A DNA stretch of 23,301 bases. Source: a virus. How positions within the stretch are numbered: the stretch's first letter is position 1; each line of letters begins with the position of its first letter. The position numbers and the translations under genes were made by a program. Shown here piece by piece: positions 17,550 to 23,054 of this stretch. The DNA lies in the IMG/VR virus record IMGVR_UViG_3300005295_000055, positions 1-23,301 of that record, one strand, 5' to 3'. The notes under the pieces are model-generated. The model searched no databases. It was not told the DNA's origin and was given only the letters and a program-made list of their open reading frames with translations.

Positions 17550-19568
17550 TTAAGTCACCTTCGGTGGGCGGGCGCCGAACTTGCGGCGCATGGCGCTATC
17601 GTGATAGCCGCCGGCGATATTCTCATTGGTGACATCGCGCACCATCACCTGCAGATCGACGCCGCCCAGCGGATTGCGCTGCTGCGATACCGATACATCG
17701 GACCCGTTTTGATTGATCACGTTGACGTTGACCTGCACGCCACCGCCCGATACGCCCAGCCGCCCGCTGGCATCGCGCTGCAATGGCATGATGGCTTCCG
17801 GGCCCGCTTCCCCCATCAGCCCGGTGCCATTGGCGAACGGAAACAAAGTGGGCCGGCTGACAATGCCGCCGCGGGCAAAGGGAACAAGGTTGCCGCCGTC
17901 GAAGACACTGCCATTCGCCGATACAAACGTCCCCGACGACAATGGCGCATTCCACCCAGCGTTGCCTGCCCCTGACAGATCGCCGCCGCCGAACAGATTA
18001 AATAATTTCGAAAACAGCATATTGATCGCCTGGCGCGTCGCCATCTGGATCAATTGCGATTCAAGACCGCGCAACGAGCTTTGCAGAGCCTCGGTCGCGC
18101 TTTTTCCCTGCTGCAATCCCTGATTAAAACTGTCGAAGAAATTGAACGCGAGATCAGCGCCAGTGCGCAGCTGCTGATTGATATAGGCAAGCCTTGGTCC
18201 GGCATCGTTGAGATGGGCTTGCCAGTTGGTCGGATCGATCTGGTGCGCGGCCTGTGCCGCCGCCTGGTCGGCCGGTGACATGAACTGCGTGGCGCCGCGG
18301 AATTGTTCTTGCTGCAGCACGCGCAATTGGTTTTGCTTGATGATCAGGTCGGCGATTTGATCGCCGTACTCTTTCCACTTCTGCCGCATTTCTTCCGTCA
18401 CCGGAATCCCGGCCTTCATCGCGGCAATATTTAATTCATGCGCGGCCTTTAATTCCTGATATTCCCGTGACGTGCGGCCGACGCCTTCCGCCTCAAGCCG
18501 TAACAGGTCGATCTGCTTCTCGATCTGTGCGACCGCGCGGTCATAGGCGTTCGGGCCCTGTGCCTCTTCCGGCTTTGGCGGGTTGGCGAGATCGTTGATC
18601 GCATTCGTGAAGCGGCCGGCAAAACCACCGCCGAGGCCGGCGGCAAGGCGCGCACGCGCGAGCTGTAGAGCCCGAAAGGTCGAGTTGGTATCGAAATTTC
18701 CCTTGCCGCCTGATTGTGCATCGCCGACCGAAATCGGCGGCACTCCGGTCGCAGCGATCGACAGGTCGGTATCACCAATCTGCGGCAATTTCGACGGCAG
18801 GCGCGAGGCATAATCGACCGCCTTGGCGATCGCTTCGACGATGCCGACCCAGGCCGCCTGCAGCGCCAAGGCCGGCGCTGTCAGATCAAACTGGATTTTG
18901 AAAAAATCACTGATCGTCTGCTTGGCCTTGTCAAGCCGAACACCCAACTCGGTTGCATACTGCACCTGTTTCAGCGAGATCGTGTCCTGCTGGAATTTCG
19001 TTAACTTTTCCAGATTCTTGTCGACGTCGGGCCCGAATAGCGCGCGGCCGGCGCCGCCATATTTCTCAAGCAATGATGATCCGGTATCGATGATCGCATT
19101 GAGCGTCTTCCAAACCACAACCAGCGCCGTGATTGGAACAGCCAACCGCGTGAAAAACGCAAGCGCTGGGGAGAGAAACGATACCACCCGCGCCATGGCC
19201 GAGGCAAAAACGCCTGCATTGGCGCCGAGCTGCCCCATGACAACGGCAACGCCGGAATTGGTGAATGAGCGGAAAGCCGGCGAGAGCGCATAGGCGCCGA
19301 CCGCCAGCAACTTGAGATGACTGGCCGTCTCGAGGATGCCGGATGCGGTGTCAACAATGGTGCGGCCAAATTGCTCATAATTGTCGTTGGCCGCCTTGAT
19401 GTTCTGCCGCAGATTATCGTTGGCAGCGGCATATTGCTTCTGCTGCGCCTGCACGCGCGCATAGGCCTGCTCGACTTTCGACAGGCTGGCGGCCGTCTGT
19501 TCGGCACCATCGATTGTATATTCGATGCGCAGGCGTCTGACGGCTTCATCGACATTAGCCATTGGCAT
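17550..19568 (-). CDS. Tape measure protein
   Basis: This 672-residue protein sets tail length. ATG at 19568 or at 19562 can start it; both overlap the previous gene. Residues 20-70 form a helix (SLSKVEQAYARVQAQQKQY). A long hydrophobic block at about 85-165 (LKLLAVGAYALSPAF, AVPITALVVVWKTLNAI) is typical and may insert into the host membrane at DNA entry. The middle is coiled coil, with RAVAQIEKQIDLLRLEAEGV. The C-terminus FARGGIVSRPTLFPFANGTG then MGEAGPEAIMPLQR is the usual conserved end. At about 0.15 nm per residue it predicts a tail near 100 nm (inference). Confidence 0.9.
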   Translation of the reverse strand: MPMANVDEAVRRLRIEYTIDGAEQTAASLSKVEQAYARVQAQQKQYAAANDNLRQNIKAANDNYEQFGRTIVDTASGILETASHLKLLAVGAYALSPAFRSFTNSGVAVVMGQLGANAGVFASAMARVVSFLSPALAFFTRLAVPITALVVVWKTLNAIIDTGSSLLEKYGGAGRALFGPDVDKNLEKLTKFQQDTISLKQVQYATELGVRLDKAKQTISDFFKIQFDLTAPALALQAAWVGIVEAIAKAVDYASRLPSKLPQIGDTDLSIAATGVPPISVGDAQSGGKGNFDTNSTFRALQLARARLAAGLGGGFAGRFTNAINDLANPPKPEEAQGPNAYDRAVAQIEKQIDLLRLEAEGVGRTSREYQELKAAHELNIAAMKAGIPVTEEMRQKWKEYGDQIADLIIKQNQLRVLQQEQFRGATQFMSPADQAAAQAAHQIDPTNWQAHLNDAGPRLAYINQQLRTGADLAFNFFDSFNQGLQQGKSATEALQSSLRGLESQLIQMATRQAINMLFSKLFNLFGGGDLSGAGNAGWNAPLSSGTFVSANGSVFDGGNLVPFARGGIVSRPTLFPFANGTGLMGEAGPEAIMPLQRDASGRLGVSGGGVQVNVNVINQNGSDVSVSQQRNPLGGVDLQVMVRDVTNENIAGGYHDSAMRRKFGARPPKVT

Positions 19569-20304
19569 AGCCCAGCAGAAGCGGTTGATTGCGCGCGATC
19601 AGTTGCGGCGTGCCTGCACTCGCCGATTGCCCTGCGCGCATGGTGATAATGATCGCCGGCGAAGGAACGCTTGCCCCCGCGCGGCGGTCACGGCGGATGG
19701 TCGGCGAGCGATAAATGCGGCCCGGTAGAAACTGTCGAGACGGCTGATCGTGCCGCAGCGCGTAAGATCGCGGCGGATCGACATAGCCGAATGAAATACT
19801 GGCCGAATTGTCGAAGCGCGCATGTGCCTCCTTGGCCACCCGTTCATAGATTCGGTTCTGCACCTGGATCACGAAGGACCGCCCCGATTCTGTTTTTCCG
19901 ACTTCGATCTTGCGCGCATAAGGCTCGGTGTTGAGAAAGACATAGCGTTGTGCTTGCGGAATCTTGCCGTCGGCGGGAACGATGATGTCATCAGCCATCA
20001 GGATGTGCCCGCGCCGGTAGGCGCCGGAGACGATTGGTGAGTGCTCCCGCAGGCTCTTCCAGATCCACAGCAGGACCGTATCGAGCAGTTCCCACTCAAA
20101 GACGAGCGTGCCTTTTTTATCGTTGATGGCGGTTATCGGCGCGTTACGGCGGCCATCAACTGACACAATGGCCGCGACATTGCGCCCGGTTGCCGCTGAG
20201 TTGGCCTTGTCGATCTGCTCGAATTGCTCGCGCGCATAAAGCGCCACTTCCTGGCGGGCGATGTCCGTCAGGAGGCGGGCGATTTGCTGTTGCGAAGCGG
20301 GCAC
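19555..20304 (-). CDS. Phage tail-associated protein of unknown family
   Basis: This 249-residue protein has a GTG start (20304) and a stop that overlaps the tape measure start. Residues 4-35 are helical (QQQIARLLTDIARQEVALYA). The middle has LVFEWELLDTVLLWIWKSL and HSPIVSGAYRRGHILMADD. YVFLNTEPYARKIEVGKTES (122-141) looks like the G-x-Y/N-T-E-Y-A-x-x-I-E-G pattern of HK97-gp10-type tail/neck proteins. The C-terminus is beta-rich and Arg/Pro-rich. It lies between the tail chaperone and the tape measure, where lambda has no gene. A tail completion or assembly role is only inferred. AAGG lies too close to the GTG to be a clear binding site. Confidence 0.6.
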   Translation of the reverse strand: MPASQQQIARLLTDIARQEVALYAREQFEQIDKANSAATGRNVAAIVSVDGRRNAPITAINDKKGTLVFEWELLDTVLLWIWKSLREHSPIVSGAYRRGHILMADDIIVPADGKIPQAQRYVFLNTEPYARKIEVGKTESGRSFVIQVQNRIYERVAKEAHARFDNSASISFGYVDPPRSYALRHDQPSRQFLPGRIYRSPTIRRDRRAGASVPSPAIIITMRAGQSASAGTPQLIARNQPLLLGYANG

Positions 20305-20320
20305 CTTCGGAACGAAGGCT

Positions 20321-20710
20321 TCAGCCCTTACCGGGAGCAGATTTCTTCTCCATTGCTATGCTTGCCCGCAATTGCGACAGCTGCACCAGCACCAGACTTT
20401 CCCATGGCTCGATTGCCATCCGCCGCAACTCACACCAGGCCTGCAGCGTTTCCCAGCTGATCATCGGCGGCGCAAAGCCGTTGGCCGTTAACCCGAGCGC
20501 GATCTCCTGGAAGTAGTCGTAGAGATAGGCAATCGAGGGCGGGCATTCCGGCGCTGGCTTCTCGAGCTCTTTCGATTTGAGACCGAGCGCCTTGAATTGC
20601 CGCAGCGCTGACGCCCGGTGCTCACGCTCCGTCGCGCCGTCGGCTAACCGGCGGCCCCCGCGGAATTCGTGCTCGGCGAACTGACGGAGGCCTTCGACGA
20701 GCGCTTGATA
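20321..20710 (-). CDS. Tail assembly chaperone, -1 frameshift extension (gpT-like part)
   Basis: This frame has no ATG, GTG or TTG upstream that would give a full-length product, and it overlaps the end of the chaperone gene by 67 bases in the -1 frame. After the slippery site it encodes 129 residues: YQALVEGLRQFAEHEFRG, then a charged linker, then PPSIAYLYDYFQEIALGL and ISWETLQAWCELRRMAIEPW, ending KSAPGKG. The sequence has the composition and helical pattern of a real protein across the whole overlap. It should be made only as the C-terminal part of a 266-residue fusion, as with lambda gpGT, which binds the tape measure during tail assembly. Confidence 0.75.
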   Translation of the reverse strand, partial: YQALVEGLRQFAEHEFRGGRRLADGATEREHRASALRQFKALGLKSKELEKPAPECPPSIAYLYDYFQEIALGLTANGFAPPMISWETLQAWCELRRMAIEPWESLVLVQLSQLRASIAMEKKSAPGKG

Positions 20711-21120
20711 AAATTTCCGGCGGTGTTCACGAACACCCAGGCCTGCTTGCGCAGATAGGCCATGCCAGGATCGTTGTAGAACTCGACCGCATTCTCCTTG
20801 GAGAACGGGACATCGAGTGCTTCACCGCTCGCTGGGTCGACCAGATACCAGCCGACCGTCAGCGCGACCAGTTTTTCGATCTGGCCGTCGGTTAAATCAT
20901 CGCCATCATCTTGCAGGTTTCGGCCCGAGCGCAGTTTGCGGATCTGCTGCAGGTTTTGCTTGCGATCGATTTCGCGCCCGGCATCGCTGTCGGCTGACAG
21001 CAGAGAGAGGAAGGCCTGTTTGCCATCTTTGTCGGTCAGGACCGCATCGGTCAGCGGATCAATGATCGGCATCTTGAATGCGTCGGACGTATTTGTCGCG
21101 AGCGCGGAAAACTTACCCAT
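20644..21120 (-). CDS. Tail assembly chaperone (gpG-like)
   Basis: This 158-residue protein starts at an ATG behind AAAGGAG. It reads as a helical, acidic protein (PIIDPLTDAVLTDKDGKQ, then DLTDGQIEKLVALTVGWYL) and ends with a disordered Ser/Thr/Ala tail after residue 137. It lies between the tail tube and tape measure genes, the place of lambda gpG. In siphoviruses the short form and the rare frameshifted long form together guide tail tube assembly on the tape measure. The residues after F137 are read in place of the extension when no frameshift occurs. Confidence 0.8.
   Translation of the reverse strand: MGKFSALATNTSDAFKMPIIDPLTDAVLTDKDGKQAFLSLLSADSDAGREIDRKQNLQQIRKLRSGRNLQDDGDDLTDGQIEKLVALTVGWYLVDPASGEALDVPFSKENAVEFYNDPGMAYLRKQAWVFVNTAGNFIKRSSKASVSSPSTNSAGAAG
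20710..20716 (-). promoter_or_regulatory. Programmed -1 frameshift slippery heptamer A AAT TTT
   Basis: AAATTTT on the minus strand fits X XXY YYZ exactly in the chaperone frame: Asn codon AAT at 20715-20713 and Phe codon TTT at 20712-20710. A one-base slip joins residue 137 (Phe) to the Tyr codon TAT at 20710-20708. Both tRNAs can re-pair with AAA and TTT after the slip. Confidence 0.75.
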
Positions 21121-21146
21121 GGAATTCTCCTTTGGTGGGAAGGAAT

Positions 21147-21179
21147 GGGCCGCGGCCGATCACCCATCGCCCGCGGCCC
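21147..21179. other. Intergenic hairpin between tail tube and chaperone genes
   Basis: GGGCCGCGG at 21147-21155 and CCGCGGCCC at 21171-21179 form a perfect 9-bp stem with a 15-base loop in the 142-base gap. On the transcribed minus strand it is followed by ATTCC, not a T run, so it is not a clear terminator. It could stabilise or attenuate the abundant tail tube message. Confidence 0.4.
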
Positions 21180-21262
21180 GGCTGCGCAACCGCAAAGTCC
21201 GGCGCATCACTGCGGCGGTCCTTTGTCGCTCTGCCCCGTGGTGGGCGGGGAAGCCGAACCGA

Positions 21263-22510
21263 TCAGACTGCCTCGGTGTCGTGGATGCGGATGGTGGTGG
21301 CGTCATCGCCGGCCGTTGTGCCGGCGGCTTTGAGCGCCTGGAATGGCATGGTGATGGCCTGGCCGCTTTCGCCCTGCGTTGCGACGTCGGCATCGCCGAA
21401 CTTGACGCGCGGCAGGTAGATCGACATCGCTTGTGCGTTCACCGCAGAGCTCGCGGTCAGATAGGCCAGGATCGACACCTCGGTTTCATTCTTGAAATCG
21501 TTCACCAGCGTCGAGTCCTCGAAAAATGCCGTGACCTGCCCGCTGACATTGGCGAGGCCAAGGAATATCTCGGGCACGAAGTTCTGCCCGACCACGCCAT
21601 CGGAAGACGGATTCAGGTTGAGGTTGATGTCGATGCCAGTGACGACACCAACGACCGTGCCGCCGACCCGCAAGAGACCGTTCACCGCCGCGATCAGGCC
21701 GGTGGTGGTCTCGGCCGTGGGCGCGGTAAAGAATGGGGCCGAGCCGCCGCTTGCGACTTCCATGTCGCGGCCCATGAACGGGACCTCGATCGTACCTATG
21801 CCGGTCGCCGGCAATTTGAGCGAGAACCCGCCGACGCGGCATTCGGTAAACAGCCGCGAAATATCGATATCCGAATTGTAGATCTCGATGCCATATTTGC
21901 GATTGACGAAGCTCGATGACGGCACATAGATCGACTTGCCGGTTGTCACCAGTGAAAAGCTGGTGTCGGCGGTCATTGTATCCGGCGCCGGGTAGACCGA
22001 TATCGTGCGGTTCGATCCGCCAGAAAAGCCCGTGATCAGGAAGTTTTTCGTATTGTTGTCGGCGTCCGACATGCCGGTGAGCCGGAAGATCATGCCGGTG
22101 CGCAGGCCAAGTGCGACGGGATCGCCGCCGCCGGCGGTAAACTTGCTGGTCGTGTTATCGGCCGACAGAGAGGTCAACGCGCTCGGGCCAAGCGTAATCG
22201 CCGCAGCCTTGGTGCCGCGACACGCCGCTTCGATAAAGTCGAAATAGGTCGCACATGACAATTCGCCAGAAATAGAGCCGGTTGCCCGTTTTACCCCGTG
22301 CCGAAAATCCTGAAGCTGCCGGTCGGTACGGATTTCGTTTGCGGCGTAAGTGTCCTTGGCAAGTTTGAGCGACGATGAGACGCGGCGTAGCGTTTGACCG
22401 CCGGTCGCCACCAGATCGCTCGCTGACACAGCTTGCGCATTCGAGGCGATTGTGCCCGATGCATAGGCCTTATATCGAACTGATGCTTGTACGCCTTCCG
22501 CGAGCGACAT
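21263..22510 (-). CDS. Major tail tube protein (Phage_tube_2-like)
   Basis: This 415-residue protein starts at an ATG behind AAAGGAAA. RYKAYASGTIASNA, LRRVSSSLKLAKDTYAANEI, DRQLQDFRHGVKRATGSISG and SCATYFDFIEAACRGTKAAA (residues 11-100) match the start of long tail tube proteins of siphoviruses, including the -I-R-T-D-R-Q-x-x-D-x-R-x-G- motif. The later domain has a second beta-rich repeat (residues 230-330), so the tube subunit may carry an outer decoration domain. It should polymerise into the hollow tail around the tape measure. The order terminator, tube, chaperone supports the call. Confidence 0.85.
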   Translation of the reverse strand: MSLAEGVQASVRYKAYASGTIASNAQAVSASDLVATGGQTLRRVSSSLKLAKDTYAANEIRTDRQLQDFRHGVKRATGSISGELSCATYFDFIEAACRGTKAAAITLGPSALTSLSADNTTSKFTAGGGDPVALGLRTGMIFRLTGMSDADNNTKNFLITGFSGGSNRTISVYPAPDTMTADTSFSLVTTGKSIYVPSSSFVNRKYGIEIYNSDIDISRLFTECRVGGFSLKLPATGIGTIEVPFMGRDMEVASGGSAPFFTAPTAETTTGLIAAVNGLLRVGGTVVGVVTGIDINLNLNPSSDGVVGQNFVPEIFLGLANVSGQVTAFFEDSTLVNDFKNETEVSILAYLTASSAVNAQAMSIYLPRVKFGDADVATQGESGQAITMPFQALKAAGTTAGDDATTIRIHDTEAV

Positions 22511-22571: not shown

Positions 22572-23054
22572 TTAGCCGACGAGGTCGAAAAACATGTCGA
22601 TCTCACAGACCGCGCAATAATAGTTGTCGACTTCGTTGGCGCTTAAGCCCTGCGGCTTGATGCCGGACCGATCGCCGCCCAGCGGGTAGATCGTTGCATC
22701 AAAGCAATGCAGATCGGCACTGCGAAAGCCGCGAAATAAAGTCGCAACCTGTTCGGCCAGATCGCTGGCAGCGGCAAAACCCGCCCCGCGCGGCACAAAA
22801 CAGAAGGCCTCAATGCGGCAGGGATGGCGCCATAGATTTGCGCCGGTGCCGCCACCAAATCCTGCAAGAAAGGCTTTCTCGGCGGCGAGCTCGATATAGA
22901 TGAATGCCGCAGGGATATCTGGCAGGCCAAAATTGCCATCGGTGTCGGCATCCTCATTCTGCCAATAGAGCTGCGCCTGAGTGCTGCCATAGGTCGGGCG
23001 ATTTGCTTCAAGCCGCGTCCTGATTGCCGCCTGCGCCGCGGTCGCTGTGGTCAT
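22572..23054 (-). CDS. Tail terminator-like protein
   Basis: This 160-residue protein begins TTATAAQAAIRTRLEANRPT, then has YWQNEDADTDGNFGLPDIPA and IYIELAAEKAFLAGFGGGTG, and ends VDNYYCAVCEIDMFFDLVG. This layout (helix, beta sheet with the pattern PAAFIYIEL, second helix, final strand of a dimer or hexamer) fits the small tail terminator proteins that cap the tail tube before head joining. It lies between the connector and the tail tube gene, the normal place. The DUF4128 family is a likely match but was not tested. Confidence 0.75.
   Translation of the reverse strand: MTTATAAQAAIRTRLEANRPTYGSTQAQLYWQNEDADTDGNFGLPDIPAAFIYIELAAEKAFLAGFGGGTGANLWRHPCRIEAFCFVPRGAGFAAASDLAEQVATLFRGFRSADLHCFDATIYPLGGDRSGIKPQGLSANEVDNYYCAVCEIDMFFDLVG

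Follow-up and report, generated by a model that had tools for sequence, protein, structure and literature searches.

Two overlapping open reading frames in the tail region of a viral DNA raise the question of whether they are separate genes or a single gene that yields two products. The DNA, hereafter the window, is the whole stretch of 23,301 nucleotides that we analysed (positions 1 to 23,301 of IMG/VR record IMGVR_UViG_3300005295_000055), and both frames lie on its minus strand. The 0-frame gene, G (20644..21120), encodes a short chaperone of 158 residues and runs from an ATG at 21120 to a TAG at 20646-20644 (158 codons plus the stop), with a Shine–Dalgarno-like AAGGAG, read from the sequence, 6 nt before its start (21127..21132, minus strand). 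The -1 frame stays open between 20821 and 20324 and closes with a stop at 20323-20321; its overlap with the 0 frame spans 58 codons. Within this overlap, at 20710..20716 on the same strand, lies AAATTTT, phased A AAT TTT, from which the -1 frame extension, T (20321..20710, minus strand), continues for 129 codons plus a stop.

A sequence-only reading had proposed that G is a tail assembly chaperone with a -1 programmed frameshift at this heptamer. All three features lie where it had placed them: the exact X XXY YYZ heptamer at 20716-20710 is the sole in-frame one in G, and the -1 frame has 129 codons and no usable start, with no ATG, GTG or TTG in its first 82 codons and the first at codon 83 of 129 (ATG at 20464). 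The two product sizes that it had derived, 158 and 266 residues, also agree with the arithmetic of slippage (137 + 129 = 266).

The G/T locus sits in a tail operon, between the tail tube and tape measure genes, all on the minus strand. The upstream neighbour is the tail tube gene (21263..22510; PF18906, E 1.7e-27), and the tail terminator gene lies at 22572..23054 (phrog_179, E 5.6e-07). On the other side, one gene without an assigned function (19555..20304; phrog_16336, E 4.9e-32, scanned as 19555-20331) intervenes between T and the tape measure gene (17550..19568, 672 aa; phrog_1716, E 6.9e-25). The scanner called no promoter or terminator in window positions 20300-21300.

Both parts of the locus have chaperone signatures. 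For G, the match is to phrog_313 (Tail assembly chaperone, E 1.4e-10), and T (20710-20324) scores 39.6 bits against the Pfam family PF23812, Phage_TAC_18, whose curated cut-off is 27; this domain was found in all 15 members of T alignment A9. A Pfam scan of the window at E up to 1 returned PF23812 as the sole family for T and none for G, and Pfam on the G alignment gave isolated weak matches, one member each. Because Pfam gave no match to the family of lambda gpG/gpT, we do not file the window gene as their sequence homologue. Among 50,697 phage records searched by tblastn, T matched 58, with at least 80% of its length covered in 48, and G matched a single one.

Predicted structures place the domain boundary at the joint. 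The AlphaFold2 model of G is ordered through a helix at residues 118-137, beyond which the 0-frame tail has low confidence, as disordered stretches give; the predicted fold thus ends at the slip site. The T model is a five-helix domain that begins at residue 2. Viral structure matches of G are, where named, tail or tape-measure chaperones, and include both forms of the tape-measure chaperone of Caulobacter phage Sansa. Against the PDB, a second-look aligner ranked YqbN (3klu, Z 5.4 over 102 residues) and the HK97 tail assembly chaperone (2ob9, Z 5.1 over 99 residues) highest for G, both weak and below the tool's clear level. Foldseek found no PDB match under E 0.69 for G or under E 0.97 for T, and a search of PDB sequences with the two profiles found nothing for G up to E 1 and, for T, two weak matches that look unrelated.

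Substitutions relative to the nearest relative, L002, indicate translation of the -1 frame. Across the 106 codons of the T-only region, differences at codon positions 1, 2 and 3 were 0.35, 0.25 and 0.66, a pattern that, judged by sequence comparison, is that of a translated frame, and the G region upstream of the heptamer likewise shows a coding-like pattern. For the overlap, the sequence-only reading had contrasted a coding-like -1 frame with a low-complexity 0-frame tail, a contrast that conservation did not support: in the 21 codons compared with L002 it is about equal, with 12 of 21 residues identical in the -1 frame and 11 of 21 in the 0 frame. The codon-position test there preferred neither frame (5, 6 and 8 differences by T codon position).

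T might instead be a separate protein, started internally or by ribosomes that reinitiate past the G stop, with no fusion made, much as some deposited records give it, as a short ORF from a late start codon. A start at codon 83 of 129, however, would lose the first three of the five predicted helices; the similarity of T to phage proteins starts at the first residue past the joint and runs onward from there; and in-frame fusions of the two parts exist (described below). We therefore regard separate translation as very improbable.

The heptamer by itself is unremarkable. AAATTTT occurs three times in the window against 2.67 expected, and when the gene was resampled synonymously (5,000 draws), an in-frame heptamer fell in the -1-open overlap in 33% of draws and at the exact site seen in the window in 5.5%. 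Since a third of resamplings place a heptamer in the overlap, its presence proves little, and relatives were therefore gathered by protein similarity, irrespective of any heptamer; annotated loci were fetched from the listed matches and chosen for variety. After excluding 7 repeat loci (L001, L004, L015, L017, L020, L021 and L025) and 14 in-frame loci (L027-L040), we kept 34 loci, window included, which form 27 clusters at 80% T identity.

In these relatives the heptamer keeps the same place as in the window. A canonical heptamer lies inside the G/T overlap in 24 of the 27 cluster representatives, window included, and in-frame heptamers number 25 per 904 overlap codons against 5 per 2,841 codons elsewhere in G, totals that carry a small error because L042 entered with a wrong-frame 22-codon ORF as its G. 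A chance heptamer, possible from the window alone, is ruled out by this difference. In L003, L009, L018 and L019 the -1 frame opens just 1-2 codons upstream of the heptamer, and in relatives whose overlap is down to 7-11 codons the heptamer is still inside.

By class, the 24 clusters divide into AAATTTT (7), AAATTTC (5), TTTTTTC (6), TTTTTTG (2), GGGAAAC (3) and GGGAAAG (1). The slip site of lambda is GGGAAAG. Compared with lambda, the AAATTTT of the window is indeed unusual, as the sequence-only reading had remarked, but within its own family AAATTTT/C leads all other classes, with 12 of the 24 heptamer-bearing clusters.

The frames could also be joined elsewhere in the overlap or by other means, such as another slip site, a +2 shift or transcriptional slippage. 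The 58-codon overlap in the window would allow this, and the three clusters that lack a canonical heptamer (L014, L047 and L042, the last in a different frame) show that other mechanisms occur in the family. Against it, AAATTTT is the sole in-frame heptamer in the window overlap, the 7-11-codon overlaps of relatives still contain one, and runs of three A and four T are, from general knowledge, short for transcriptional slippage; we think it highly unlikely that the window departs from its heptamer. A sequencing error or recent one-base mutation in a single-frame gene, to which the in-frame relatives might point, is least credible and close to negligible, since most of the 34 loci, which come from many different samples and isolates, share the out-of-frame layout, and substitutions stay coding-like in the T-only region as well as in G upstream of the heptamer.

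Together, the comparison with relatives, rather than the heptamer alone, leads us to conclude that -1 programmed frameshifting very probably yields chaperone forms of 158 and 266 residues. What computation shows directly is the open reading frames and their domains, the order of the genes, and the conservation of both joint and slip site, and the original proposal of a frameshifted tail chaperone gains support from PF23812, the conserved position of the heptamer and deposited relatives joined by slippage. From these we infer slippage itself, its rate, any help from a hairpin and the binding partners. The gene would be a gpG/gpGT-type tail assembly chaperone, on which the majority of ribosomes would end at G's own stop to give the 158-residue protein. 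A minority would slip back one base, with the Asn and Phe tRNAs on A AAT TTT, and continue in the -1 frame; the resulting fusion, 266 residues long, would carry a Phage_TAC_18 domain at its C-terminus. If the parts behave as in lambda, the tape measure protein would be bound by G and tail tube subunits recruited by T.

Downstream of the heptamer, the evidence on a stimulatory RNA hairpin points both ways. Across 24 loci, 45-nt segments starting 0 and 5 nt past the heptamer had mean folding z scores of -1.74 and -1.70 (dinucleotide shuffles), against a mean of -0.15 in 744 control windows; the Mann–Whitney p of 7.5e-8 for the +5 segment is optimistic because the loci are related. In the 12 AAATTTY loci, an 11-pair stem from 6 nt past the heptamer has 73.5% of 132 cells paired, with none of 500 shuffles as high and slid versions at 33-45%, and 7 of its pairs show changes on both sides, but these counts are in-sample, since a scan of those very 12 sequences had chosen the stem. 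The window carries 9 of the 11 pairs (20671..20702, minus strand; arms 20702-20693 and 20680-20671), and its 42-nt fold reaches -13.5 kcal/mol (z -1.87), whereas its 70-nt fold favours a different structure.

With the T protein held fixed, the mean z shrank to -0.84 (median -0.5; Mann–Whitney p 0.03 against other codon windows) and that of the window hairpin to -0.21. Most relatives have a hairpin past the heptamer, but much of its signal stems from the encoded protein. Given this and the in-sample choice of stem, we dropped a strong claim for the hairpin; a stimulatory hairpin after AAATTTT is plausible, not established. By eye, no Shine–Dalgarno stimulator was seen in the 24 nt upstream of the window heptamer. 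Further downstream, about 90-150 nt past the heptamer, the 24 loci show another, weaker folding peak, with a mean z of -0.80 at +90 and of -1.16 at +105.

In the 14 IMG/VR contigs set aside as in-frame (L027-L040), a single frame holds the whole joined protein; this relative group with an in-frame fusion supports the frameshift reading. Their long form has 246 aa from an ATG at 1129 where the start is covered (L032 ends before it). In all six contigs searched whole, a shorter second copy lies directly upstream of the long gene; it is a paralogue of 131 aa in L035 and L040, and that of L035, which comes after a tail-tube-like ORF, matches phrog_313 (E 1.3e-11) and shares 31% identity with the N-terminal portion of that contig's long form. 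The stretch that separates the two genes contains a hairpin followed by a T-rich tail, together with TTGACA-17-AATAAT, in all 13 contigs that cover it. In L035 the order is short paralogue (603-998), terminator-like hairpin (1023-1055), near-consensus promoter (1073-1101) and long gene (1129-1869).

On the two contigs scanned, L035 and L040, the scanner called a terminator and an 11-of-12 promoter between the genes. Promoter-like totals were 3 and 7, against 2.5 in shuffles, and terminator-like totals 3 and 3, against 0.2 and 0.3, with two of each three terminator-like calls being short stems on the other strand. DNA identity among five of these contigs compared was 83-98%, and the group is therefore one evolutionary case. 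It looks like gene duplication and transcription in place of frameshifting: with a terminator and promoter before an in-frame long gene, the ratio of the two forms would be set by transcription, not recoding. The literature searched contained no report of a frameshift being replaced by a terminator and promoter.

A third way of joining the frames is suggested by Limnohabitans phage DC31 (L042, 1485-1510), in which G ends ILNFRSE and T continues DPSEIEEA. As read from the sequence, the two would join only through a +1 shift, for which AAC UUU CGA is the simplest site; influenza virus is reported to undergo +1 shifting within UCC_UUU_CGU, according to the title of PMC3498833. In L023 (1486-1495), GGGAAATTTC is a composite of two overlapping in-frame heptamers, counted above as AAATTTC with an overlapping GGGAAAT also present; this could possibly be a stepping stone between the two site types, GGGAAAN and AAATTTN, which lie one codon apart. 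We consider it an evenly balanced proposition that the family has exchanged its short/long mode while keeping the joint, between -1 slippage, a +1 shift, and a paralogue with terminator and promoter. The -1 sites in this proposed exchange would be A AAT TTY, G GGA AAN one codon upstream, and T TTT TTN.

Several further loci differ at the joint. Roseobacter phage CRP-6 (L014, 1495-1501) has GGATTTT there and Rhizobium phage RHph_N28_2 (L047, near 1485) has CTCTTTT; in both, good re-pairing after a -1 slip is possible at the A-site codon only. In Pseudomonas phage PaMx28 (L049, not a cluster representative), a T run at about 1492 shifts the annotated G relative to its relatives' frame, through either a sequencing error or a +1 case. 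Beyond the loci gathered, two genome-contig scans yielded no confirmed relative, a plasmid search gave no match, and in a search of phage DNA for distant matches to the tail region the eight matches listed cover 2% of the query. A search for window G in 15 whole records gave exactly one match in 13 and none in 2.

In kind, the window gene is ordinary, frameshifting tail chaperones being already known and well described in PMC5009743 and PMC5313236. Lambda, according to the former, makes a short chaperone and a -1 frameshifted long form ahead of its tape measure gene, an arrangement that the window shares while using AAATTTT in place of GGGAAAG. Heptamers of the form R_RR.U_UU.Y are described as highly shifty exceptions in E. 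coli in an excerpt of PMC4066793. We found no report of AAATTTT in a tail chaperone in the literature searched by text; the one phage-related match concerned a Wolbachia phage hydrolase, as seen in part of PMC10299305.

Among deposited relatives, Acinetobacter phage DMU1 (MT992243, L041) has an annotated gpG/gpGT pair, a short and a slippage-joined chaperone of the same family and place, whose slip site is TTTTTTC, unlike that of the window. The Sansa chaperone (KT001913, L063) also has a short and a joined form, with 'ribosomal slippage' in its record and GGGAAAA, rather than AAATTTT, near the annotated slip point; it was not detected by sequence search with window G at E 0.01. In T4-like phages the short and the long chaperone each have a gene of their own (Vladimirov 2022, as relayed in an excerpt of PMC10885494), as they do in L027-L040, whereas the window uses one gene; set against T4-like phages, L027-L040 are marked by the Phage_TAC_18 domain of the long gene and by the terminator and promoter between the genes.

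Under the frameshift reading, the annotation of the window is corrected from two ORFs to one gene with two products. Gene finders based on start codons lose or truncate T, as in deposited relatives. The family also supplies natural cases in which a recoding signal seems to have given way to other means; these allow one to ask whether phages need the short-to-long ratio rather than frameshifting itself, and raise the comparative question of how that ratio is kept when the signal changes or disappears.

Bradyrhizobium phage ppBdUSDA122-1 (OP596612, L009), with an alphaproteobacterial host, has the same joint and the same AAATTTT as the window, a T 32% identical to window T, and a tape measure gene that adjoins; its record has T as an ORF of its own with a later start and notes no slippage. 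Its G (1076-1525 of L009) is labelled a branched-chain amino acid ABC transporter, apparently an annotation error. Elsewhere in the window are a tRNA-Arg with anticodon TCT (2789-2864) and a tyrosine-type phage integrase (5581-6627, PF00589), which together fit a temperate phage or prophage, as expected.
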